DNA of 64,000 nt from Alphaproteobacteria bacterium (GTDB lineage Bacteria; Pseudomonadota; Alphaproteobacteria; Rs-D84; CASDRH01), in assembly GCA_025210155.1 (NCBI GenBank), contig JAOASE010000006.1, positions 1-64,000 of the forward strand, read 5' to 3'. The position numbers and the translations under genes were made by a program. Of the stretch, positions 1-64,000 are shown piece by piece. A model generated the notes under the pieces. It had not been told where the DNA came from. It did not search any database and saw nothing but the letters and a program-made list of their open reading frames with translations. Positions within the stretch are counted from its first letter, which is position 1; every line of letters begins with the position of its first letter.

Positions 1-100
1 ATGCTGTTATTGCTAGCACTGTAATTACTGCCATGATGCCTAGAACCCCTAGCATCTCTATCATTGATCGGCCTTTTTGATTGATGTTTTTTATATACAT
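1..100 (-). CDS. Type IV prepilin-like protein, N-terminal fragment cut by window edge
   Basis: Minus-strand ORF starting at ATG 98-100 and leaving the window at the left edge, so only about 33 residues are visible. They form a short basic leader ending QKG, then RSMIEML and a hydrophobic stretch. This is the class III signal of type IV prepilins: cleavage after Gly, Glu at +5 of the mature protein, and a hydrophobic helix that builds the fibre core. A prepilin peptidase would cut it at the inner membrane. Three other genes here (24,197-29,204) have the same N-terminal signal. No clear ribosome binding site is visible. Pilin-like is firm; the mature part is unseen. Confidence 0.7.
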   Translation of the reverse strand, partial: MYIKNINQKGRSMIEMLGVLGIMAVITVLAITA

Positions 101-24196: not shown

Positions 24197-25615
24197 TTAC
24201 TGATTATTTACATCAGAGTTCTCTGTTATATATGCATCCATCTTCGTATTGGCAGCTTCTAATGCCTTAAATAACTCTGTAAAAGTAGAATTTTCGGCAA
24301 ATGAAGTTTTATATAAAGTTTTATTTGCTAATCCTTTATCATTAACTGAACCATCTAAATTTTTCAAACTACTAGCCTTGCTTATCACTAGAGAATTAAA
24401 TCTATGATCATCCGTACTAGTATCAAGATAGAAAATTCCTGATGCATCGGTAGTTACCCTTCCGTTTGTATATAATATATCGCCAAATATCATATGAACA
24501 TCTGCATGATTTGCATCGACATTATTTGCCCTAACATAACCTGATATTTCGAATCCATGATTTGGCTGTAGTGTAAGATCTCCTCCTATCATAAATCTTT
24601 CCGTTGTCACACCTTGAGCATATACTACACTGGCAGATGACGATTCTGCTTCTCCATAGAAATATATATCTCCATTTATAACCGGTGTATTTGAACTATC
24701 TAAGGTAAGCACATGGTTATTTAAGTCATCACCATATGCTGGAAAAGTCATGACATCTGTATATAAATTTCTAAATTGAAAACTTTTTAATCCATCGTCT
24801 TTAGATAAAATTAATTCATCTGCTTCTATTGGACTTCGAATATCCATATAATTAGATACTATATATTTTGAACTCATAGCTCTTAAATTTTCTATATTCT
24901 TAAGAGACATAAACATATTTGTTGTCATTTTATTGAAATCTTCTTGGTCTGTATATTTTTTAGCAATGAAATTACCTGCCTTAGTATTACTTGAGAATAA
25001 TATTGCAACGTCATTTTCTGATATATCATCTGTTAGATTAAAACCACTTGGATTCCAATCACTTAAATCAGATTCCCATCCAAACCCCATAATCTTATCT
25101 GCCTCTACATAAGCCCCGTAAGAACCTAATTCCTTTACGATAGCAGATGCTTTTTTACTCTTTATTTGAGCAGAAGGATTTTCTCCTATTATAAGCGCTT
25201 CAATACTTTGAGTACTTTCAGTCGATACCACTCTTAGATATATAGCATAAGATTTGTCTAAAACATTTGTTGATGATGCCTCAAATATACCATGCTTATT
25301 TAAAATTTCTTCTGTCATTATATTTCCGCATTCAGAAGGACCCAAAACAACACTTATATCTGAAAGGCTCACCTTGCAAACATCTTTGCTTGAAGATGAA
25401 ATGTTTTCTAATATGTCTGACTTATACTCGCCAACAAACCCCTCTACTGATTTATATAATTTCAACATATCTTTAACTATTAGAATATTCTCAGATAACT
25501 CTATTTGTTTTTTAGATTGGGCTTGAATGATTGGAAGAATTATAACTAGAACTGTAACCATTAGGATCATTTCTAGTAACATTCCACCTTTTTGATTTCT
25601 TTTTTTATTTTTCAT
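24197..25615 (-). CDS. Large prepilin-like surface protein 3
   Basis: 472 residues. Class III signal RNQKG/GMLLEM (cleavage after the first G; Glu at +5) and one hydrophobic helix (about 12-32). The mature part is Ser/Thr/Asn-rich and beta-like, for example GDLTLQPNHGFEISGYVRAN and SSASVVYAQG. This resembles minor pilins with a large C-terminal adhesive domain, such as PilV of conjugative thin pili, but the similarity is architectural only. Last of three tandem paralogues (27,465 to 24,197 on the minus strand), separated by about 29 bp. The four visible cysteines could pair in the periplasm. Confidence 0.7.
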   Translation of the reverse strand: MKNKKRNQKGGMLLEMILMVTVLVIILPIIQAQSKKQIELSENILIVKDMLKLYKSVEGFVGEYKSDILENISSSSKDVCKVSLSDISVVLGPSECGNIMTEEILNKHGIFEASSTNVLDKSYAIYLRVVSTESTQSIEALIIGENPSAQIKSKKASAIVKELGSYGAYVEADKIMGFGWESDLSDWNPSGFNLTDDISENDVAILFSSNTKAGNFIAKKYTDQEDFNKMTTNMFMSLKNIENLRAMSSKYIVSNYMDIRSPIEADELILSKDDGLKSFQFRNLYTDVMTFPAYGDDLNNHVLTLDSSNTPVINGDIYFYGEAESSSASVVYAQGVTTERFMIGGDLTLQPNHGFEISGYVRANNVDANHADVHMIFGDILYTNGRVTTDASGIFYLDTSTDDHRFNSLVISKASSLKNLDGSVNDKGLANKTLYKTSFAENSTFTELFKALEAANTKMDAYITENSDVNNQ

Positions 25616-25644
25616 AAATTCCTCTTGAGTAAAACTTTAATTAA

Positions 25645-27441
25645 TTAGAAGAAGCTGTAACCGGAACATATAGTTCCTACACTTCCAAAGGTATCTGGGG
25701 ATCCGCAATATTCTGCTAACATACTTCCACAGAAAACAGAATCTGATGAACCTGCTCCAGAAGGATATATATCTGGACAAGTAGCTTCAATATCACTTCT
25801 TCTTCCTCCACTTTTAGAACATATATCGCATATGTAATCTCTAGTCTTTGCAGAGGTATTTCTAAAACTTGTTATAAGATTATTTACTTTATTATTAAAA
25901 TCCTCTCCTTTAACTTGGATAGAATCTGCATTTAAAATACCGTCTAAACCAATAATAACTTGATTAGATCCATATTTTCTAAGACTTGTGGTTCTTATAA
26001 TATTGGCATTAAGAGAATTCGTTGTAAATGTTCCATTAGCTCTAAACTCTGTAGAATTTATATCTGGAGTATTTCCATTTGGTATTAAGTTAGCTATGTA
26101 CAATTCGTTAGCTGAAAATCTTTCAGAAACATTTAGCCTTTCGAATATTCCTATACCTTTCTTATCACTAATCTCTCCGGAACCGACTGAAGATCCTGAC
26201 AAAACTAATTCCTCTACATTTATTGTAGAGCCATTTGATGCTAGAGTTATTTGATCATTACTTTGAATTGAATTTAAGCTAACAGTATACCCACCTGAAG
26301 ATGTAGCATCATCTCCATCATTAATATCTTTATCTAAGTCTAACTCACCTCTAAGAAGAAGATAATCTCTTATGGATAAAATACCGTTTCCATCTCCATT
26401 AAATGATATTTCATTCGCAATATCTATGCTATCTATAAGAGCCTCTTCAGATAAAGATATGCCTTCATTACCTATTGCAGATGCTGCAGAATCATAAACT
26501 ACTTGAGTTATACATTCTCTATCAGCTGAAACTGTATTACCTTGAGCATCTTCTTTTGTATTGCAAATAGATGATTGTGAGTTATCTGTCCACTTTCTAC
26601 ACTTACACAAGTCTTTGCTAATCTCTGCTCCAGCCGGTCTTGATGCCCCACCTACGTAGCTAGCGCCTGACTTACTTATGATTTGATCAACATCTAATTC
26701 TTTAACATGTTTAACGTCATTGAAATTCATATCTATATATGTTTCCATATCATTTTTACTTGTATCTAATCTATTTAGAAAACTGTTGTATTCTTTTATA
26801 ACATTGTTATCTATCACTAAAACTATCTTTGGTTGGTCTGCATTAAATGTTATGTTTGGAAAGTCTGATGTAGGCCTTCTCCAGTAACCAGAAATACTAT
26901 AAATATTGTTATCATCTCCATCATAATAGGCAAAGTTTGCACCCGCCATAGAAGCTATTTTTCTTAAAGCTTCATAAGAAAACACATCATCAGAATTCAT
27001 AAATAATTCCTTATTAATATCTAAGAATGCAGTAACAGATAATCTTTTAGGGCAAGCATCTTCCAATGCAGCCGTACAACCTTCTACCTTTTCATTATGA
27101 TATTTTTCTGAAGTTAAATAATATCTTCTTAAACTAAAATATTTTTGTAATATCGTATCTGTATTACTAGTTAAACCATAATTACTAAGGTTTAAATCAG
27201 ATTCGTTCTTTGCTCCATTACTTGTGGTTTGGAAGCTTTCTTTGTTAACGATAGTATAGTTAATTAAAACATCTTCTAACTCCTTTAATTTTTGAGCTAT
27301 TAAAGTTTGTTTAACTTTTTGAGTTTGACCATCTATCATTGAATATATGAATGGCATAAGAATTAAGAGAGCTCCTATTGCTAGAATTATCTCTAACACA
27401 TTCATACCTTTTTGATTTCTTTTTCTATTGTTAATATTCAT
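25645..27441 (-). CDS. Large prepilin-like surface protein 2
   Basis: 598 residues. Class III signal RNQKG/MNVLEI (Glu at +5) and hydrophobic helix LAIGALLILMPFIYSMI. The body has beta-rich Ser/Asn-rich segments (VELVLSGSSVGSGEIS-like, ANGTFTTNSLNAN). The C-terminal 65 residues hold six cysteines (two in CDIC), and there are further pairs around residues 120-130 and 275-310, so the protein is probably disulphide-stabilised outside the cell. Middle member of the tandem cluster. Function is not known; pilus-tip adhesin is my inference. Confidence 0.7.
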   Translation of the reverse strand: MNINNRKRNQKGMNVLEIILAIGALLILMPFIYSMIDGQTQKVKQTLIAQKLKELEDVLINYTIVNKESFQTTSNGAKNESDLNLSNYGLTSNTDTILQKYFSLRRYYLTSEKYHNEKVEGCTAALEDACPKRLSVTAFLDINKELFMNSDDVFSYEALRKIASMAGANFAYYDGDDNNIYSISGYWRRPTSDFPNITFNADQPKIVLVIDNNVIKEYNSFLNRLDTSKNDMETYIDMNFNDVKHVKELDVDQIISKSGASYVGGASRPAGAEISKDLCKCRKWTDNSQSSICNTKEDAQGNTVSADRECITQVVYDSAASAIGNEGISLSEEALIDSIDIANEISFNGDGNGILSIRDYLLLRGELDLDKDINDGDDATSSGGYTVSLNSIQSNDQITLASNGSTINVEELVLSGSSVGSGEISDKKGIGIFERLNVSERFSANELYIANLIPNGNTPDINSTEFRANGTFTTNSLNANIIRTTSLRKYGSNQVIIGLDGILNADSIQVKGEDFNNKVNNLITSFRNTSAKTRDYICDICSKSGGRRSDIEATCPDIYPSGAGSSDSVFCGSMLAEYCGSPDTFGSVGTICSGYSFF

Positions 27442-27464
27442 AATATATCTATCCTATAAATTAT

Positions 27465-29204
27465 TTATTTCCAATAATCACTATTTATTGATGTTACTGC
27501 ATTTTTTAAATTTCTTATAGATGTACTCATACTAGACATTGAAGAACTTCCTTCAAGACTTCTTATCTCATCTCTTATTGTAACAATTTCAGCTCTTGTA
27601 AGTGGGCAGTTTTCATCATAAACAGATTCTTGAAGTCTATCTTTTTCAAAACAAAAATGCGCGTATTGCATTGCTTTTTGCATATCATAAAGGGCGTTGA
27701 ATACTGCGGATGCTTTACAATTATTTGCTACCGGGCAATCTGATGAATAAATAGCATTAGTCAATGTAAATACATTTACTCTAGATGACACATCTAAATT
27801 TATATCTTGTACCATGTTAGTATCTCCACCTGGATTTAATCTGGCTACCTCTTGTATATCCAACTGATCTTTATCACTATCAAAATCAAGAGTTGATGTA
27901 TCTTGAATTACAATACCAACTTGCCCACCACCTAATTCTAAAGCGTTTACACCAGATATTGTTATATTATTATCTGTAGGACCTGATCCTACTAGCTTTA
28001 TAAGAGCGTCCTCTGAATTAGTTGAGTAACCACCTAAATTTTCAACACCTATATCCGAGAAAGTCGTTGAGTTTTCATCTTCTGCCATGGTTAAGTTCTC
28101 TATATACATAGGAGATGATGAACCTAGACTTAAATCTTCAACCGCTATTTCTTTATCTATAGATATATCTTCGAAAAATCCGCCTTCAAAAGTTAGATTT
28201 TGAGTTATGATATGACCTAGATTTAAGTTTTGAAGAGAACTTATAGTTACAGGATCTTCAGCTTGATTTTCTATAGTTTTAACAGGTTGAACTGATGTGC
28301 CTATTGTACTTGAACTGCTTAAAGATCCCGTTGAAATTGTTTCAAAATAACTTGTTTCTGAAATCGTTCCATCTATAGTTATTTTTTCAACATTCGCAGT
28401 ATAAACATCATATAAATTGTTGTCATCTCTTTGCTCTGATGTACTGAAATTTAAATTAACTAACATAGTATTTTCAATACCATTATCAGATGATGTTTTA
28501 TCTTTATATAAGAATTCACTTACAACAACATCTCCGTCAGAAAGAGCTACCATTATGAATTCGTTTTCTCCATCTGTATATGTAGCTGAATTTATAGCAT
28601 TATAGATATCCTTTGGCACTTGAAATAAACTTCCTGAGGAAGAAGCTACACATACGTCTCTAATATAATCTGTTGCATCCGCACAACTTCCGCCACCTAC
28701 AGGAGATGTTCTAACGACTGCCGCTGAGAAACCGATTCTATTAACGATTCTTTTTAATCTTAATTTTGATAGATCTCCTTTTGTTACTATCAAGTAACCT
28801 CTTGTTAAAAGTCCGTTTGTAGTATCTTTATCTAAAATCAAATGATATGTTTGACCCAAACTGTTTCCATTAAGAATACCTTCTATATTTTCTTTTTTTA
28901 TTCCGTATCCTGAAAGAACACTAAGATTGTCATCATCGCCAACAGATCCAGTTCCAACATAAATAGTCGAACCTTCTGATATTACAAAACTACCATCTTT
29001 TTCTTTATCTTTATTTGCAGATAAATAATTACTAGCAGATTCTCTGATTAAATTTATTTGGCTGGCAATTGCCTGCTCTTCTAATTTTTTATTTCTTTCT
29101 TGAATAGCTCCCATTAACATAGGTAGAACTATGATAAACAATGCAATACCTAATAGCATTTCTAGTACAACAGAGCCGTTTTGATTTGATTTTAAATTTC
29201 TCAA
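27465..29204 (-). CDS. Large prepilin-like surface protein 1
   Basis: 579 residues. Class III signal KSNQNG/SVVLEM (Glu at +5) then helix LLGIALFIIVLPMLMG. The central region is a repetitive beta-type sequence (ISSLQNLNLGHIITQNLTFEGG and VEDLSLGSSSPMYIENLTM), and the C-terminal part is helical with a Cys pair motif (CPVANNC) and two more Cys. First gene of the three-gene cluster and so probably the nearest to the promoter. Only the N-terminus is clearly homologous among the three, as expected for pilins with different outer domains. Confidence 0.7.
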   Translation of the reverse strand: MRNLKSNQNGSVVLEMLLGIALFIIVLPMLMGAIQERNKKLEEQAIASQINLIRESASNYLSANKDKEKDGSFVISEGSTIYVGTGSVGDDDNLSVLSGYGIKKENIEGILNGNSLGQTYHLILDKDTTNGLLTRGYLIVTKGDLSKLRLKRIVNRIGFSAAVVRTSPVGGGSCADATDYIRDVCVASSSGSLFQVPKDIYNAINSATYTDGENEFIMVALSDGDVVVSEFLYKDKTSSDNGIENTMLVNLNFSTSEQRDDNNLYDVYTANVEKITIDGTISETSYFETISTGSLSSSSTIGTSVQPVKTIENQAEDPVTISSLQNLNLGHIITQNLTFEGGFFEDISIDKEIAVEDLSLGSSSPMYIENLTMAEDENSTTFSDIGVENLGGYSTNSEDALIKLVGSGPTDNNITISGVNALELGGGQVGIVIQDTSTLDFDSDKDQLDIQEVARLNPGGDTNMVQDINLDVSSRVNVFTLTNAIYSSDCPVANNCKASAVFNALYDMQKAMQYAHFCFEKDRLQESVYDENCPLTRAEIVTIRDEIRSLEGSSSMSSMSTSIRNLKNAVTSINSDYWK

Positions 29205-54456: not shown

Positions 54457-56637
54457 TTAGGCATGAAGCATCATTCTTTTTTTAGGACGTTCTAATTTTG
54501 CATCTGCAGAATTTTCTAACTTTTCTCTTTCTAACACCCAATCAGGCAAGAAAGGAGCTTGAGGCATCTCTTTTTTGGCTACTTGAACTGGATCTTTAAA
54601 CCACAATGGAGATTCTGCTTTTATTGGCTTATCAGGAGCTCCTTGGTAAAGAACTACCTGCTCTCCAAATGGTAAAGACATTAAGTCCATAGCGTCAAAA
54701 ACTTTTTCACTTTGAAGAGATTTTCCAACATCAAGAGAGAAGCCATCAATCTTTTTGTCACCATGCCTAGTATCTCCCTGAACTATTGTCTTATTACCAA
54801 TCATGTCTGCAAATCTTTTGGCCGATTTTTCATTATTTTGAGCTAGTATAATTTTTGCAGCAGTAGTGGACATCACTGTTTCGACAGCATCTCTTCCATA
54901 GTCAGCCTCAATTTGTCCTAAGTCTTGACATATCAATAAATAAGAAACTTTTTGTCCACGACCAACTGCAGGACCATCAATCAACGCACTAAGTTGAGGC
55001 ATTTGAGGGAACTCGTCTAATGCAAATAGCACAGGGCAAGGCCCCACTTCTTCTCCATTGAATGTTGAACTAGGTGGATGAGCAATTAAAAAATTAGACA
55101 TAAGCTCTATGAACATACCTGAAATTTTATTAAGAGCTCTTGCATATTCAACATTAACAGAAAGATAAACTGTTAGTGGTTTGAACTTACCATCTTTAGG
55201 ATCTATCATACCTCTAAGGTCCGCAAAACCAAATGATGTTGAAGATGTTCTTTCTCTAACCGCAGAGTTTTTGAAAATTGCTATACCCATCATTGCGTTA
55301 GAAAGAATTGAACCTCTTTCTTTATCAGGAGTATTTGCTAACTGGTTTAACTCTAATATCGCTCTATTTGAATATTTAAATTTTTTAGCTTCTGCAACCG
55401 CAGTTTCGAAGAAGTCTTTCATTGGATCCGCGAACATAGCAGATTGATCTCCACCTTGCTGTCTCTTTTTAATTATTTCTGCTGCTTTTAGCTGACTTTC
55501 TGTCATCCAGTCTAATAAAATTGGAATAGATGGCTCATTTGTTCTTATCTTTTCAGGAATACCTTCCCAAGTTCCAATAGGAACATAATTTTGATAATCT
55601 AACCTTCCTTCTTCAAGCATTTTCAATGCTCCTCTAGCGAAAGAATCATCTATTTCTATATAATAATCTGATAATACGTCGGCATCTTTTGAATCGAAAG
55701 TTCCCTCTTTTAATCTTTGATAGAAATAGTCTGAAGCTTTAGCTCTTTCAAATTTAGAGAAAAGGAAATGGAATAATCCATTAAGTGCATTTTTACCACC
55801 ATTAGACCAGTGAGGATCTGAGGAAGAACCCTTCTTATCTTGAATAAGAACGTTTGCCATAGATTCTATATACATATCTCTGTCTGGGCCTTGAGGAGGC
55901 ATTAGTTTAGGAGATAGTGCATTCCATGATGGATAATAGATTCCATTTTCAGGGTCATTTTGAGCACCCCAATTTAATGTAAATGTTGGACCCACACTAG
56001 CTCTATAACCAGATGTAGTGAAACAAAGTTCTGGCTTAGGATCATTTACAACTATTGAAACATCATCACAATTAAACAGTGTTGGAATGATAATAGCTGT
56101 TGTTTTACCTGTTCCTGGAGGTGCTGCGGCAAGAACAGAAAGTGTTTCAGGTAACTTCATATACTTACCTTTAAATTTACCAAGTACTGTTATTACACCA
56201 TCGAAGAGACCAAGTTTTTTAATATCACCCTCTGTTGCCTCTCTACCTGTACCTTTTTGATTCAAGTGCTTTTTCTTACCCCAAGGATTGGAGTTTGAAT
56301 AATGAACATTTAGAGCATAATAAAGTGGAATTGGTAATAGAGGCAATAAAGGAGTATTGCTCCAATCTAAAAATACCAAAGAATTTAACCAAGCTAAGAA
56401 TTCTACTGCTACGGATAGACCTCTGGACTTAACGATATTTATATAGAATGTTTTTATTTCTGGAGAGAAAAAAGCACTTATAACATATTCTTCTCTAGCC
56501 CAAGCTGACAAATGAAGAGTAAAGATTATCATCATGTACGCAAGAATATAGACGTATATTCCATACATCATATCGTATACTAAACCTTTATGTCTATCTC
56601 CAGAGACATCGTTTGTAAACCATTTTTCTTTGAACAT
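54457..56637 (-). CDS. TraG/VirD4-type coupling ATPase
   Basis: 726 residues. Two to three N-terminal membrane helices (about 20-110), Walker A AAPPGTGKTTAIIIPTLFN, DPKPELC, and Walker B PVLFALDEFPQMP with DGPAVGRGQKVSYLLICQDLGQIE. Coupling ATPases feed substrates to a type IV secretion channel. No virB gene, relaxase or oriT-like sequence is visible here, so it is isolated from the rest of its machine. Ends AKLERPKKRMMLHA, basic. A terminator divides it from the autotransporter. Confidence 0.88.
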   Translation of the reverse strand: MFKEKWFTNDVSGDRHKGLVYDMMYGIYVYILAYMMIIFTLHLSAWAREEYVISAFFSPEIKTFYINIVKSRGLSVAVEFLAWLNSLVFLDWSNTPLLPLLPIPLYYALNVHYSNSNPWGKKKHLNQKGTGREATEGDIKKLGLFDGVITVLGKFKGKYMKLPETLSVLAAAPPGTGKTTAIIIPTLFNCDDVSIVVNDPKPELCFTTSGYRASVGPTFTLNWGAQNDPENGIYYPSWNALSPKLMPPQGPDRDMYIESMANVLIQDKKGSSSDPHWSNGGKNALNGLFHFLFSKFERAKASDYFYQRLKEGTFDSKDADVLSDYYIEIDDSFARGALKMLEEGRLDYQNYVPIGTWEGIPEKIRTNEPSIPILLDWMTESQLKAAEIIKKRQQGGDQSAMFADPMKDFFETAVAEAKKFKYSNRAILELNQLANTPDKERGSILSNAMMGIAIFKNSAVRERTSSTSFGFADLRGMIDPKDGKFKPLTVYLSVNVEYARALNKISGMFIELMSNFLIAHPPSSTFNGEEVGPCPVLFALDEFPQMPQLSALIDGPAVGRGQKVSYLLICQDLGQIEADYGRDAVETVMSTTAAKIILAQNNEKSAKRFADMIGNKTIVQGDTRHGDKKIDGFSLDVGKSLQSEKVFDAMDLMSLPFGEQVVLYQGAPDKPIKAESPLWFKDPVQVAKKEMPQAPFLPDWVLEREKLENSADAKLERPKKRMMLHA

Positions 56638-56725: not shown

Positions 56726-59700
56726 TTAGTTTAATATTAAAACCTTCAACATTAGACTTGAACCACTTCCTAGATCATCCTTGTCCATTTGATATTGTAA
56801 TTTATAATTCAAGTTATCTTTTATAATATCTGCGCTTATATATGAATTCATTACATCACCAACTCTAGCGTTTCCGTTTAAGGTTAATTCCTGATTTGTG
56901 TTATCTTCTATAAACCTAACATCATACGTATTTGCATCATCACTCGTATTAACACCATATTTAACTCCGAATGTTAAATTAAGTTTATCATATGAAGACC
57001 CATTACCTTGGAAAGATTCAAAGATTGAAAGACCCGCACCAACGATAGTATCTTCATATTTAAGATCTGCAACTTCTAATTCAGCTCCCGTTTCTGAAGT
57101 TTCTGTAAATCCATCAAAACTTGTACTTCTAAGATCTGCAAATATAAATGGATTAACATTTGAGAATGGTAAGCCAGCTTCTAGATATACTTGAGCAGTA
57201 GTTCCTGAAGTTTCCCCTTCAGCCTGCTCTATTCCATTTTCTATGGCAACAGTTCTATCATATGAACCTGAGTGTGTCATATAAGATCCGATCATTTTTA
57301 AATTAGTACTAGGAGTTAGATAAGTATAGTAACCTGAAAAACCTATTGATGTATTTTCTAAGTTGTAACTTTCTGCGTTATTATAGTCGAAAGTTTCTTT
57401 AGTTTCATTTTGTAAAACAGAACCAGCAAGACCATATTTAGAGATTTTAAAGTTTCTGCCCTTTCTTCCGTACGTAGTAAAGTCATAACCCAAAACAGCT
57501 CCTGTTGTATCTATATCATAATCTGCATTATATCCAGCTGAATCAGCATCTAAATCACCGCTGTATGAATTTGATATTGCTGTGAACCAAGGGTTTCCAA
57601 AATTATATAAACCTGATTTTTGATAACTTTTATTTTTCGCTAAGAATGACATTGGCACATTAATTGTTGAATAGATATCTGAATTACTTAAAACCGCATC
57701 TCTAAATATTGAAGAGTTGTTAAATGCTGTTGTTTCAAGGGCATTGTAAATTCTTAAATTTAACATATCATATCTATTAGCTAAATCTTCTTCATCACTA
57801 GCAAATACAACTCCATTTATAACTCCATTCATAGCCTTAGAAGGAGCTTGAGTTGATCTATTATTTTCCAGTCCTTGAATAAAGTTTCCTAATGTTAATT
57901 CATTTTCTGACATGGTTGCAGGAGCAATCATACTATCTGTATCTATCTCCACTCTGTAAGAAAGTTGAGTATTGTCTGCTGTATTTTTCTCTAGCGACAC
58001 CAAGTAATAAGACTCTGTTATATTGTCGGAAATCTCTAAGTTTGTTGTATCTATTGCATTGTTAGAGTTCATTACCAATATATCATCTTTTCTATCTGAT
58101 ACTATAGAACTTTCTAGATTAAGCTGAACTGTAACGCCATTTCCATCTGCTGTAGCTCCGGAATCAGCCTTATCTTCAAATACTATTGTATCTGAATCTA
58201 TTGCTCCTGTTGTGCCATGTTTTGTTTCATCATAATTAATTATAACTTTACCCTCATTATAGAATGTAGTTGTACTAGATATATTTTGAACAGATCCTGT
58301 TTTATCAACAACCATATCTCCTGAGTTACCAAAATCATCATTTAAAGTAAGTGTTCCATCTATATCTAATGAACTATCTTTAGTTGTAGTAGTATTTCCT
58401 CCAACAACATTTAGAGTGTCTCCCTCTGTTATTCTTATATCAGAGTCTATATTTGCTCCTGATGTCGATGTTAATGTTGAAGTTTTTCCTGTATCAAATG
58501 TTAAATTATGTTCAACATCACCACTAGCATCTACCACAACGTTTACAGTATCTGTTTCTGAGGTGAAAATAACATTTGCTTCTTCCCCAACAGTAATATC
58601 TCCAAATGAATTAAGGTCGAAGTTATCTGATCCTAACATTTTTCCATTTAAAATTAAATCTCCACCGGCCATATTTAGATTTCCATTTATTGCAAATTCT
58701 TCATTACTTGTGAAAGTCGCATTTTCTGATATGCTTAGAGTTGCTCCAGCTCCAATTTCAATTGCTTTGTTAGCTTCCACATAACCACTTTCTATATTCC
58801 AAGTAGCCGCTAAAGATGATATGCCTGAAATTTCTGTTGCCGAGGAAGATGTTGAACCTCCATACATGTTTATAGTACCTGCATTGGTAAATGTTCCTGT
58901 GTTATATACACTTCCATGTAAATTCAATTCTGCATTTAAAGCATTAGTAAAATCACCATCATCATTGTTATTAAAATTATTATTTATAGTAAGTATAGAG
59001 TGTGCATTATTATTAAAATCTGAATTATTATTTAATGTGCCAACTATAATTTCTGATTTATTTGCGGCGTCTACTCCCTCATTAACTATATTTCCTTCGT
59101 TATCTAAAGTACCTGAAAAAGTAATTTTATCATGATTTGTTAAATTATTATTATTGATAACTTTTCTTGAAGCAGAGCTAAATAATACATCATAAGAAAT
59201 ATCTCCAGAATTAGTGTTTCCAACAGTAACATCACCATCTAATTCTATATCTCCACTTTGATTTTTAACTTCATAATGAGCTGTTTTATTTGTTGTTGCA
59301 GTCGAGTCAAAATTCCAAGTTCCTTCAAATTTATTAATACCAGAAACCTCTATTCTATCATTTGCAGAAGTTACCTTAGATGTTTCACCAGTAAGAGTTA
59401 CTGTTGCATCATCTCCAGATCCATATTCTTTTGTGAAATTGTTTGCTTCAGTTCCAACATAAATATTTCCTCCAACAAGTAATTCACCGTCATCTTTTAA
59501 TGTAAATGTACCATATCTAAGATCTAAATCTTCTTTAACATACATTCTTCCGTCTTCTTCTATTATGAACGTTGAAGCATTAGATTGTTGTACGAAATCA
59601 CCTAAAATATTTAAATAACTATCAACTCCAGATGAAGATAATGAATCATCAACACCATCACCTAATTCGAAATAAGACGAAGCGTAAGTTCCTTCTATTC

Positions 59701-62700
59701 CATTTATGAATTTGCCAGCTACATGCATAGATCCTTCTTCAATTATATTGTTATTAGAAACTTCTAATTGGATGCCATTTGTATAACCTATTGGAGTTAA
59801 TGTTGTGCCGTCCCAATTATAACCTATTGCCATCATACCATTTTGATCTATAGTAATATTACTCTTAGATTCTACGGAATTTTTAACTATCATAGTACCT
59901 GAATTTACCCAAACTTTGTTTTTACTATTATCCGATGTTGTGCCACCCCATGTAGACGTTCCGTATGTTCCGTTAGATGTTAACTCTCCTCTTAAAGTTA
60001 AATTACCAGTTCCAACATTAAATATACCTACTCCAACATAACCATCTAAAATGTTATCACTATCAAGGTCTTCTCCTACACCAAGATTGCCGTCTTTATC
60101 AGAATCTTCTCCATATTGAGTTGTCTTTCCTATCGTAACTTTAGACCCTTTTTCAACATAGAATTCACTATCATCTTTTGTTGTAAGATTTACGAATCCT
60201 ACAGGGTTATAATCCGGAGTATCATCAACTATAAAATCGAATTCAACATCTGTATTATCACCAACTCTTATAGATCCATTATTTGTAAATGTTTTAGATT
60301 TACTACTTCCTGAAATAGTCCAGTCTACACTTGCATTTTCAAATACAAGGTTTCCATTATTTTCACCGCCATTATTAGCTAGATTTAGATCAAAATAACC
60401 TCTTCCACTTGATTGGCTAGCGCTTCTTGTAAAGTTATAAGTACCATCTCCATCAAAGTTAGGAATACTTGCTATTGTAGTAACTTCATCAGCCGCATCA
60501 GAAGTTCCTCCTATAAAGTTAATTTCTCCATTATTTATGAATTTTTGTTTGTCAGGATTACCAAAACTAAGATTTCCTGAAAGATTTACTAGACCACCTG
60601 AAGCAATAAGAAAAGATCCATCTTCTATAAGCATATCTCCGCCTATGAAAACTTGTCCATCTGATGAAACGATTAGCTCAGATTCGCTTCCATGTTGAGT
60701 GAAATCTCCAGCAACATAAAGGAATGCATCTCCATATTCATCTTCAGCACCACCATCTCCTATGTATAAGTGAGATGATTTATAAGTACTTTCTCCATTA
60801 GAGTCATCTTTAAAATAGTTGTGGAAGTTTCCTGAAACGAAGATACCTCCATTATCAACTCTAACACCACCTTTTTCTATATTTTTAACATTTGTTTCTA
60901 CACCATCAATGATTGTAGAAGTTTTTTCATTATATAGATCATTTGCAAAATATGCATCTTTAGGAGTTCCTGTAAAAGAAATGCTATTGTCCATCAAACC
61001 TTTATATGTATCTTCAGCACTTGTTGGAAGCCCTGAGCTTAATTGACCAACTAATATAACTGAATCGTATTTCATGTTTACTTCTGCAAATGAAGTAAGA
61101 GTTGAATTACTTATTAGTATACCAGCTATTTCTTCTTCTTCGTCAACATCTCCCTTACCTTCAACATCTGTAGTTTTTTCACCACCTAAAGACCCTAGAG
61201 ATATAGATGGATCTTTTATTAAAGATTCCCCCTCTCCTGTATAAGTTGTATCAAAAAGACTTAAGTTTGCATAATCATCTTGATTTGTAACACCGATAAT
61301 TGAAACGAATTGAAGCTTTCCATCTACTAATTGAACATCAATAAGCTCATCAAGAGTTATTTTACCATCAGAATTTAAGTCAAAGCCAGAGTCTGCTAAT
61401 TCTGTTCCATCTATAACACCATTATCGTTAGCATCTGCCTCTGCTAAAATTATATTTTTATAATTAGAATCTGTTGATTCAACTTCTATAGTTGCCATTT
61501 CTGCTTCTATAGCATTAACAACTTGATTTCCGTTTGTATTTCCACTGAAATTTAAATCATCTACAACATATTGAATACCATTATAATTTATACCAAAAGA
61601 ACCATCTGTTATATCTTCCACTTCAGATTTGATAACCCCTCCATCTTCAATAGTTGTTCCAGATTCTATTTGAACTAACCATTCGGCATCAGAGTTAATA
61701 TTATGTTTTTGATTGTCATCACCTGTGTCTCTACCAAAAACACCATAATCACTAGATTCATTTTTAATTAAAGATTCTGATGAACCACTTATAGTATCAA
61801 TTAGTGATATATAATAACCTTCCCCAACTTCAGTAGAGAATTTGATTTTATTATCATTTGTTAATACTGCAGTTACCGCAACATTTTGATCTATGAAGGC
61901 CTGATTTAAAATATCCACAACATCTTGAGAAGTCGATATACCTTGGAAATTTAAATCTTTAACTTGAACTAAGTCTCCATTTACGTTCATACCAAGAACC
62001 CCATCGGAAATACTAGACATACTTGATACGTTGACAGCTTCTTCAGTTACAACATATCCACTTCTTCCTTCTATAGTAGTATATTCTACTTCACCCAAGT
62101 TTATAACTGGAGCCCTATCTTCACCTCCACTTACAACTGTCACCCTAGTTCCGTTTGTAGCTGAAGCTTGATTGAAATCATCGGCATCTGTCTTTTTACC
62201 ATTAATATATAAAACATCATCTGTTGGATTATTATTAAAATTATCTAATGTACCTAGATATAGTCCATTTTCATTTTCAACATTAAGATTACCTGCTATC
62301 TTAACTTCTCCAAGACCTATAACTGTAGTTCCACCATATGCATTAACTGTACCATTATTTTTAATATAAAGGGAGGCGTCATTATCTTTATTTGTAGATG
62401 TAAGATAAATTATATCATCTTTATCAGAACTGTAATCTGCTTGAATATCTGTAGTTAATGGATTATTAATAGGATCTGGATCCGATATATCTACCCCTGT
62501 TTCGTTATTAGCTTTCAAATTATCAGCATTACCTATAAAGATATTTAGTGTACCTGAATCTTTAACTAAAATGTTAGAAGTATTTTCAAAATATCTTTCT
62601 CGTTTATTTGATGGAGCACCTGTTTCTGTATCTACTATTATAGATGTTACAGAATCATTAACTTTGAAATCTATATTGTTATAAAAAGTGTAATCCGAGT

Positions 62701-64000
62701 CTGATGAACCATTATAATCTTGAAGATAATTTAGTGTTGCTGAATTACCATCATCCGCCTTAACATCAAGACTTATAACTATTTCATCTTTATCACTAAA
62801 TACGTAACTTGATACTCCACCAAGGTATATTGCTCCATCACCTGTGATAGAATTTCCCGTTCCTATTGTTATATCATCATTAAGATATAGAGAACCATTT
62901 ACTACTAAATTTTGTTGTAGATCAAAATCTCCATCAACATATAGGAAGCCGTCTTCATTTATCTCCAATGTGGATCCTTCTTCAACCGTTAAACCTCCAA
63001 CATATGCAAATGAATCTTTTTTGTAAAACATTCCTGAGTATGAACTTAAATTGCTATCTAAGTCATCATCACCTAATATAAAACTAGTATCGTCTGCTAA
63101 TGTTAGAGTGCCTGATAAATAAAACTGACCTTCTGTAATTTCAATCTGTTGGTTTTTATCTTCATTCAGTGTTAAATCAACTGGAGTTACATTATAATCT
63201 TCTCCTCCAATTAACTTATCTGTATCATTATCATCATCAGCATCGCCAACAAATTTATCAAATTCAAATGATGAGCTATTTATAGTTCCGTCTTTAACAT
63301 CTTCAAATATTTTTTTCCCATCAAAACCAATCATTATAACGCCTCCGTCAGAATTTGTTATAGTTTTTTGATCCAATTTATTATCTGTATCAGAACCTGT
63401 ATTAGTATTATCTATTAAGATTAATCCACCTTTATTATTTATTTCTGTTATATCTGTGTTTCCTGCTACATGGAATACAGGGAATGATTCTCCAACATAA
63501 TTTCCATCTTCATCGTAGATCAAACCTTTTTCATTGTTTAATAAAGTGTCATCATCTCCGCTACCTAATTCTAAATCACCGTTGATTTGTACGTAACCTC
63601 TATTTCTTAAAATTTCTTGCTCTATTATTAACTTAGATGTTTCTGAATCTCCGTCTTCATCAACTAAATATAATTCAGCTTCACTTCCTATTAGGACTTC
63701 TTCACTGCTGTCTAATTTAATTCTATGCTCTTCATCTGATGCAAATAAATCAGTATCATTACTATCTTTGAATGTAGATGTAAAATACCATTTTCCTTCA
63801 TTAAAGTTTTCTACATCGGCATCTCCAAATATATGAGTTTCACTGTTAGAACCACTATTAATATAGCTTCCTCCATCTAATTTTAGATCACCTGCAATAT
63901 AAGTAGAACCTTTATTTTTATAAATTCCTGTATTAGATAATATTAAATCATTCTCCAAAGAATCTATGAAGTAAACCTTACCCTCATTATCAATTGTCCC
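56726..64000 (-). CDS. Giant autotransporter adhesin, 5' end beyond the window
   Basis: At least 2424 residues. The frame is open past 64000; the TTG at 63956-63958 is an internal Leu codon, not a start. The visible passenger is a long Asn/Gly/Asp-rich beta-helix-like repeat (patterns such as LYLNDDITIGTG, GDLNVENENGLYLG, INMYGGST). Two flagellin-like modules lie at about 61.2-62.0 kb, one with a paired EF-hand. The last 330 or so residues (56,726-57,700) form an autotransporter barrel beginning near NPWFTAISNSYSGDLDADSAGYN and ending LMLKVLILN rather than in an aromatic residue. It would be displayed outside the cell via the Bam complex. Terminator follows. Confidence 0.85.
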   Translation of the reverse strand, partial: GTIDNEGKVYFIDSLENDLILSNTGIYKNKGSTYIAGDLKLDGGSYINSGSNSETHIFGDADVENFNEGKWYFTSTFKDSNDTDLFASDEEHRIKLDSSEEVLIGSEAELYLVDEDGDSETSKLIIEQEILRNRGYVQINGDLELGSGDDDTLLNNEKGLIYDEDGNYVGESFPVFHVAGNTDITEINNKGGLILIDNTNTGSDTDNKLDQKTITNSDGGVIMIGFDGKKIFEDVKDGTINSSSFEFDKFVGDADDDNDTDKLIGGEDYNVTPVDLTLNEDKNQQIEITEGQFYLSGTLTLADDTSFILGDDDLDSNLSSYSGMFYKKDSFAYVGGLTVEEGSTLEINEDGFLYVDGDFDLQQNLVVNGSLYLNDDITIGTGNSITGDGAIYLGGVSSYVFSDKDEIVISLDVKADDGNSATLNYLQDYNGSSDSDYTFYNNIDFKVNDSVTSIIVDTETGAPSNKRERYFENTSNILVKDSGTLNIFIGNADNLKANNETGVDISDPDPINNPLTTDIQADYSSDKDDIIYLTSTNKDNDASLYIKNNGTVNAYGGTTVIGLGEVKIAGNLNVENENGLYLGTLDNFNNNPTDDVLYINGKKTDADDFNQASATNGTRVTVVSGGEDRAPVINLGEVEYTTIEGRSGYVVTEEAVNVSSMSSISDGVLGMNVNGDLVQVKDLNFQGISTSQDVVDILNQAFIDQNVAVTAVLTNDNKIKFSTEVGEGYYISLIDTISGSSESLIKNESSDYGVFGRDTGDDNQKHNINSDAEWLVQIESGTTIEDGGVIKSEVEDITDGSFGINYNGIQYVVDDLNFSGNTNGNQVVNAIEAEMATIEVESTDSNYKNIILAEADANDNGVIDGTELADSGFDLNSDGKITLDELIDVQLVDGKLQFVSIIGVTNQDDYANLSLFDTTYTGEGESLIKDPSISLGSLGGEKTTDVEGKGDVDEEEEIAGILISNSTLTSFAEVNMKYDSVILVGQLSSGLPTSAEDTYKGLMDNSISFTGTPKDAYFANDLYNEKTSTIIDGVETNVKNIEKGGVRVDNGGIFVSGNFHNYFKDDSNGESTYKSSHLYIGDGGAEDEYGDAFLYVAGDFTQHGSESELIVSSDGQVFIGGDMLIEDGSFLIASGGLVNLSGNLSFGNPDKQKFINNGEINFIGGTSDAADEVTTIASIPNFDGDGTYNFTRSASQSSGRGYFDLNLANNGGENNGNLVFENASVDWTISGSSKSKTFTNNGSIRVGDNTDVEFDFIVDDTPDYNPVGFVNLTTKDDSEFYVEKGSKVTIGKTTQYGEDSDKDGNLGVGEDLDSDNILDGYVGVGIFNVGTGNLTLRGELTSNGTYGTSTWGGTTSDNSKNKVWVNSGTMIVKNSVESKSNITIDQNGMMAIGYNWDGTTLTPIGYTNGIQLEVSNNNIIEEGSMHVAGKFINGIEGTYASSYFELGDGVDDSLSSSGVDSYLNILGDFVQQSNASTFIIEEDGRMYVKEDLDLRYGTFTLKDDGELLVGGNIYVGTEANNFTKEYGSGDDATVTLTGETSKVTSANDRIEVSGINKFEGTWNFDSTATTNKTAHYEVKNQSGDIELDGDVTVGNTNSGDISYDVLFSSASRKVINNNNLTNHDKITFSGTLDNEGNIVNEGVDAANKSEIIVGTLNNNSDFNNNAHSILTINNNFNNNDDGDFTNALNAELNLHGSVYNTGTFTNAGTINMYGGSTSSSATEISGISSLAATWNIESGYVEANKAIEIGAGATLSISENATFTSNEEFAINGNLNMAGGDLILNGKMLGSDNFDLNSFGDITVGEEANVIFTSETDTVNVVVDASGDVEHNLTFDTGKTSTLTSTSGANIDSDIRITEGDTLNVVGGNTTTTKDSSLDIDGTLTLNDDFGNSGDMVVDKTGSVQNISSTTTFYNEGKVIINYDETKHGTTGAIDSDTIVFEDKADSGATADGNGVTVQLNLESSIVSDRKDDILVMNSNNAIDTTNLEISDNITESYYLVSLEKNTADNTQLSYRVEIDTDSMIAPATMSENELTLGNFIQGLENNRSTQAPSKAMNGVINGVVFASDEEDLANRYDMLNLRIYNALETTAFNNSSIFRDAVLSNSDIYSTINVPMSFLAKNKSYQKSGLYNFGNPWFTAISNSYSGDLDADSAGYNADYDIDTTGAVLGYDFTTYGRKGRNFKISKYGLAGSVLQNETKETFDYNNAESYNLENTSIGFSGYYTYLTPSTNLKMIGSYMTHSGSYDRTVAIENGIEQAEGETSGTTAQVYLEAGLPFSNVNPFIFADLRSTSFDGFTETSETGAELEVADLKYEDTIVGAGLSIFESFQGNGSSYDKLNLTFGVKYGVNTSDDANTYDVRFIEDNTNQELTLNGNARVGDVMNSYISADIIKDNLNYKLQYQMDKDDLGSGSSLMLKVLILN
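61205..62040 (-). repeat. Two diverged flagellin-like modules in the autotransporter
   Basis: Module A (about 61,740-62,040): SDGVLGMNVNG, DLNFQG, QDVVDILNQAF, KIKFS, SLIK. Module B (about 61,205-61,640): TDGSFGINYNG, DLNFSG, NQVVNAIEAEM, then the EF-hand insert, KLQFVS, SLIK. The same landmarks occur in the same order, so one module arose by duplication. The pattern recalls flagellin hook IN repeats. Confidence 0.55.
61348..61440 (-). other. Paired EF-hand-like calcium sites inside the autotransporter passenger
   Basis: The translation reads DANDNGVIDGTEL and then DLNSDGKITLDEL, two 12-residue loops with Asp/Asn at positions 1, 3, 5 and Glu at 12. This matches the EF-hand consensus and is inserted between the helix and the closing strand of the second flagellin-like module. 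Confidence 0.65.

Follow-up and report, generated by a model that had tools for sequence, protein, structure and literature searches.

Three adjacent prepilin genes

What do three large prepilin-like genes, lying one behind the other in the genome of an alphaproteobacterium, contribute to the cell, and do they belong to a pilus? The window analysed here, i.e. the whole stretch of 64,000 nucleotides, equals contig C6:1-64000 of a genome of 1.03 Mb (97% complete, 12 contigs). The genes occupy 24197-29204 on the minus strand and are named C, B and A in the order of their transcription. Subunit C (27465..29204, minus strand, TTG start) is a prepilin of 579 aa with Glu5 present, composed of a PilV-type proximal domain and a distal part rich in Ser, Thr and Asn. 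Subunit B (25645..27441, minus strand, ATG start, 598 aa) has the same type of proximal domain and a distal part that holds most of its 12 cysteines, and subunit A (24197..25615, minus strand, ATG start, 472 aa) combines such a domain with a distal part for which a C-terminal helix is predicted. Intergenic gaps are short, with 29 nt between A and B and 23 nt between B and C.

All three proteins begin with a type III prepilin signal, in which a short basic leader and a G precede Glu5 and a hydrophobic helix. In the ORF order 472/598/579 aa, the junctions of leader and helix read NQKG/GMLLEMILMV, NQKG/MNVLEIILAI and NQNG/SVVLEMLLGI, the slash marking the junction. Coordinates, sizes (472-598 aa) and signals given in the original prediction of three tandem prepilin-like genes are all correct. 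The outer parts had also been described as rich in Ser, Thr, Asn and cysteines. The first half of this description stands, as the three amino acids make up some 25-27% of the mature proteins A, B and C vs 17% in other proteins of the window, while cysteines are abundant in B, moderate in C (6) and scarce in A (2). Similarly, the outer parts were thought to be different from each other; this applies to the distal parts, but over the first ~230 residues of the mature proteins all three share a single homologous domain.

Homology to PilV

Scanned directly against Pfam and NCBIfam, the three proteins yield nothing above cut-off, neither a GspH/I/J/K family match nor any known domain in the distal parts; a weak ComGE-like match is confined to the helix of C. 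Pfam Shufflon_N (PF04917) does not match the three proteins directly, and a PDB profile search returns solely other pilins, via the helix. For profile-profile comparison the pilin helix was removed in order to keep the generic pilin signal from driving the result. Under these conditions the family profile aligns to one built from 11 plasmid PilV proteins (hhalign, probability 98.9%, score 90.6), against scores of 6.7 for reversed PilV, at most 9.5 for 20 column shuffles and at most 2.6 for the other pilins of the genome. Orthologues sorted by position, likewise with the helix removed, match PilV with 99.3% (A), 98.6% (B) and 99.3% (C) probability, with controls at or below 1.5%, and the homology spans some 190-250 residues past the helix. 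A plasmid-PilV HMM, helix included, recovers 59 of 60 trio proteins, among them all three of the window (A 8e-9, B 4e-8, C 3e-5). Shufflon_N matches 14 of the 60 family members at E <= 0.1, the best at 1e-6.

Judged from these sequence comparisons, A, B and C are very probably minor pilins of a type IVb pilus and of the PilV type in the wide sense. Their size, which had been regarded as far larger than that of a normal pilin, is typical of type IVb tip pilins, R64 PilV having 474 aa. The PilV tip adhesin of IncI-type conjugative plasmids (R64, TP114; Shufflon_N PF04917) shares with the trio the homologous proximal domain, a similar size and the same kind of assembly operon. However, IncI PilV is one gene, whereas the trio consists of three fixed paralogues, is chromosomal and lies apart from the pil operon.

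Type IVb assembly machinery

The genome encodes a T2SSE ATPase (C6:81526-82728), a secretin (C6:85475-86050) and a prepilin peptidase (C7:17886-18278), each in one copy. The pil operon is arranged as TcpQ, secretin lipoprotein, PAP_PilO, a protein at the PilP position, ATPase and T2SSF, in agreement with PilL-N-O-P-Q-R of R64. BLAST finds counterparts in R64 for the ATPase (3e-50), the secretin (6e-32), PilR (5e-31), PilL/TcpQ (3e-7) and PilO (1e-4). From operon order and these five counterparts we conclude that a type IVb pilus of the R64/TCP kind is encoded on the chromosome. The major pilins are presumably the small pilins that carry the motif GRSMIEMLGVLGI, which are dispersed over C2, C3, C7 and C12. 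In relatives, a second ATPase match was considered as a retraction ATPase and rejected; its sequence reads rather like that of a VirB11-type secretion ATPase.

Peptidase and type IVb operon are thus present, and an absence of such genes, which would have spoken against the original prediction, is not observed. The prediction of pilus-tip proteins draws support from the PilV homology, the type IVb assembly operon and the prepilin peptidase, the position at the tip itself being a presumed one. The accompanying idea of an undescribed surface system is replaced by that of PilV-type tip pilins in a pilus of the known R64/TCP type.

The trio (C6:24-29 kb) is located outside the pil operon (C6:80-88 kb) and the peptidase on C7. 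This distance of ~52 kb, together with distal parts that carry no known domain, might be taken to mean that the three prepilin-like proteins serve another machine, in the membrane or at the surface, and not a pilus tip. The extent of the PilV homology beyond the helix and the retention of PilV-type machinery in the genome both argue against such an assignment, which we consider very improbable.

Conservation of the trio in the order

Searched with a proximal-domain profile, 194 of the 201 genomes of the order give a match; they represent 23 of 23 genera and six families. Ten genomes were examined closely, and each has the three genes at one locus. Most genomes of the order seemed to have a fourth copy as well; it was dismissed, as it results from gene B being split into two matches. 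In the 19 loci retrieved with the trio intact, the genes are adjacent, co-directional and in the fixed order C-B-A, closely spaced, or overlapping if the first possible start codon is used. Genes and order recur across a whole bacterial order, and the pattern is therefore beyond chance.

In a maximum likelihood tree of 60 proximal domains, with sequences labelled by operon position alone, each position forms one clade (A 98/92, B 98/94, C 96/89), and each of these clades follows the families. The duplications are consequently older than the order, and inheritance of the set is vertical.

Seven of the 201 genomes are not matched (G169, G104, G143, G167, G191, G088 and G011). The first four lack the trio as well as the neighbouring rluD, yet possess the type IVb ATPase; the joint lack of rluD, with the pilus ATPase kept, suggests that a gap in assembly or binning is likelier than loss. 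G191 has neither the trio nor the type IVb ATPase. The remaining two genomes are fragmentary: G088 is 86% complete and again has no rluD, and G011 is 70% complete.

When the named genome collection is scanned with an orthologue of A, 13 named MAG loci are found; with the 579-aa protein as query, no relatives appear. Related records bear the title uncultured Alphaproteobacteria, and several originate from animal gut samples. A literature search that lacked most subscription journals turned up no paper describing such a trio.

Counterparts outside the order

Among 385 genomes searched at class level, a minority match the proximal profile, mostly with single and often much longer genes. The PilV-like genes of other orders (e.g. 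L176, L177, L178, L181) share this profile with the trio and encode 852-1195 aa, but each is one gene and not a trio; L177 matches Shufflon_N at 1.3e-16. The tree sets the trio of the order apart from these sequences (89/97).

A tandem triplet is nevertheless present in G288, from another part of the class (L174 6058-11073; 659, 426 and 578 aa). Its members group with each other (98/92) and not with A, B or C, from which an independent triplication follows. Tandem pairs occur in G246 and G300. Two genomes of one family, G221 and G352, contain ~7 scattered PilV-like genes each. Unlike the trio, these are candidates for a real diversification of adhesins.

Distal parts and the question of interchangeable adhesins

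Among related species, the distal parts are conserved to 60% in A and 54% in B, vs 67% and 60% in the respective proximal domains. A search for shufflon repeats at the trio reveals just weak, chance-like inverted repeats and no invertible 3' segments. Since shufflon-like repeats are not found, the genes lie outside the pil operon and conservation of the distal parts comes close to that of the proximal ones, A, B and C are not shufflon adhesins; in this they differ from shufflon PilV, neither its repeats nor its hypervariable C-terminus being seen. A shufflon PilV in the strict sense would moreover sit within the pil operon, beside the prepilin peptidase. Single-chain AlphaFold models (21 and 19 sequences) reach a mean pLDDT of 52 and 45 and are fair in the proximal domain only. 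Foldseek with the model of A, which is weak distally, gives nothing significant.

The description of the three proteins as interchangeable adhesins is contradicted by the data, which point to ancient, non-equivalent paralogues that are co-inherited in fixed order and whose distal parts are not hypervariable. A related explanation holds that A, B and C are three separate homotrimeric adhesins, used alternatively or side by side on one type IVb pilus, each with its own target. For PilV as well as for TcpB and CofB, a single gene does supply the tip (PMC9045228, PMC9565799). In addition, A, B and C have dissimilar distal parts, and some other Alphaproteobacteria have several scattered PilV-like genes. 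Nevertheless, three independent adhesins fit poorly with a set in which no member is lost or reshuffled in the closely examined genomes, in which number and order are fixed across six families with each paralogue vertically inherited, and in which distal parts are nearly as conserved among related species as proximal ones. We regard separate homotrimers as a minority possibility.

Glu5 and the presumed arrangement of the tip

All examined A and B retain an acidic residue at +5. Gln occupies this position in 12 of 19 orthologues of C, and in C only, by two independent replacements on the tree; the named MAG loci display the same pattern. The C of the window retains Glu5, likewise the C of families f1, f4 and f6 and of genus g19. 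The pilin that enters the tip first does not need its own Glu5, and most multi-pilin systems have one minor pilin without it (PMC5207764). A loss confined to C would fit, as expected, with C as the tip-most subunit.

The fixed set of three genes and the loss of Glu5 in C only lead us to favour, with somewhat better than even confidence, the reading that the trio are PilV-type minor pilins forming one mixed tip complex of a type IVb pilus, with C outermost. The prepilin signals, the PilV homology, the machinery, the order-wide conservation as a fixed trio and the monophyly of each paralogue are observed, whereas tip location, complex formation, stoichiometry and ligand are what we infer here. 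The single longer gene usual elsewhere in the class and the separate triplet of G288 are in keeping with this reading. For the Glu5 argument, the count is two independent events, and for the argument from convergence one lineage. Once the prepilin peptidase has cleaved A, B and C, the proximal pilin domain common to them would dock in the filament and the distal part would point outward. The three different paralogues would build one tip, in its simplest form a C:B:A heterotrimer of 1:1:1 with C tip-most. Such a complex could prime pilus assembly, pass through the secretin and make contact outside the cell, either for adhesion or for carriage of a secreted protein.

The tips formed by TcpB and CofB are homotrimers of one protein (PMC9565799). 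By description, TcpB and CofB, the single minor pilins of the TCP and CFA/III type IVb pili, resemble the trio in being large prepilins with a pilin domain and a long distal part, and in their TcpQ-type operon; they also provide the model for tip location and priming. They differ in being encoded by one gene and forming a homotrimer (PMC9565799, PMC5207764), as opposed to three paralogues here. A homotrimeric tip may have turned into an obligate heterotrimer by two duplications before the order radiated, and separately in G288, after which C would have been free to lose Glu5; we give this course of events an even chance.

Against the mixed tip speak the Glu5 kept in the window's own C and the place of the trio ~52 kb from the pil operon; moreover, three subunits stacked without a trimer, as GspI-J-K, would explain the same data. 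The trio would then be a priming complex like GspI-GspJ-GspK, with its members at successive tip positions and one of them having the contact function. Like the trio, the GspI-GspJ-GspK tip complex of type II secretion and the type IVa minor pilins comprise several different minor pilins. One of theirs may lack Glu5 (PMC5207764), as C does in 12 of 19 orthologues but not in the window. Exactly one of the three subunits tolerates the loss of Glu5 in its orthologues, as does GspK (PMC5207764), and the gene order is fixed, both in accordance with stacking. All three proteins, however, have long distal parts, do not match the GspHIJK families and are closely related to each other and to PilV; furthermore, an independent triplet of the same kind in G288 suits a threefold tip better. 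A stacked complex is therefore unlikely in our estimation, and the mixed tip remains the preferred reading.

Other pilins and surface proteins of the genome

The genome encodes a second, unrelated family of giant pilins of 504-537 aa, with two genes on C4 (C4:40251 and C4:41861, L019) and one each on C1 (C1:6704, L020), C11 (C11:39370, L021) and C3 (C3:2788, L024). Its members consist of a major-pilin-like N-domain (hhalign 99.3% to small pilins), a linker and ~11 repeats of ~26 residues with a C-x8-C-x17 spacing, and exactly 26 cysteines occur in five of five. For the repeat part, neither a significant Pfam match nor a PDB match was obtained. This family is possibly more novel than the trio. 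The other giant pilins were considered as members of the trio family and rejected by profile comparison.

A fourth prepilin-like gene had been noted as cut at the left edge of the window. A minus-strand prepilin gene, interrupted by the end of the contig, is indeed present there (window 1-100), but it belongs to another pilin family (KGRSMIEMLGVLGIMAVITVLAITA) and stands outside the trio. Together with a fragment without N-terminal part at the start of C3 (L024 18-1178), it resembles the Cys-repeat/GRSMIEML pilin family, and contigs seem to break inside these repeated pilin genes. Two tandem small prepilins of 148 and 155 aa (L017 7150-8076, G000:C3) have a weak PilS/N_methyl resemblance and are flanked by ORFs that look phage-like.

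At the right end of the window, a giant ORF extends from 56726-64000 on to C6:66580 (L025), in frame by coordinate arithmetic. It comprises ~3284 aa with a signal-peptide-like N-terminus and encodes a putative giant secreted surface protein. It adjoins a coupling protein of the VirD4/TraG type (window 54457-56637; PF02534, 2.8e-48), and a VirB11-like ATPase is found in relatives.

Significance

The solved type IVb tips, TcpB and CofB, are homotrimeric, and a three-paralogue tip present throughout an order would, if true, show a route to asymmetry. It would bridge the simple tips of TCP and CFA/III and those built from several subunits in type IVa pili and type II secretion, while the rule that the tip-most pilin may lose Glu5 would become testable in natural sequences. 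For the organisms themselves, the trio provides a handle on how uncultured Alphaproteobacteria with small genomes contact their surroundings.
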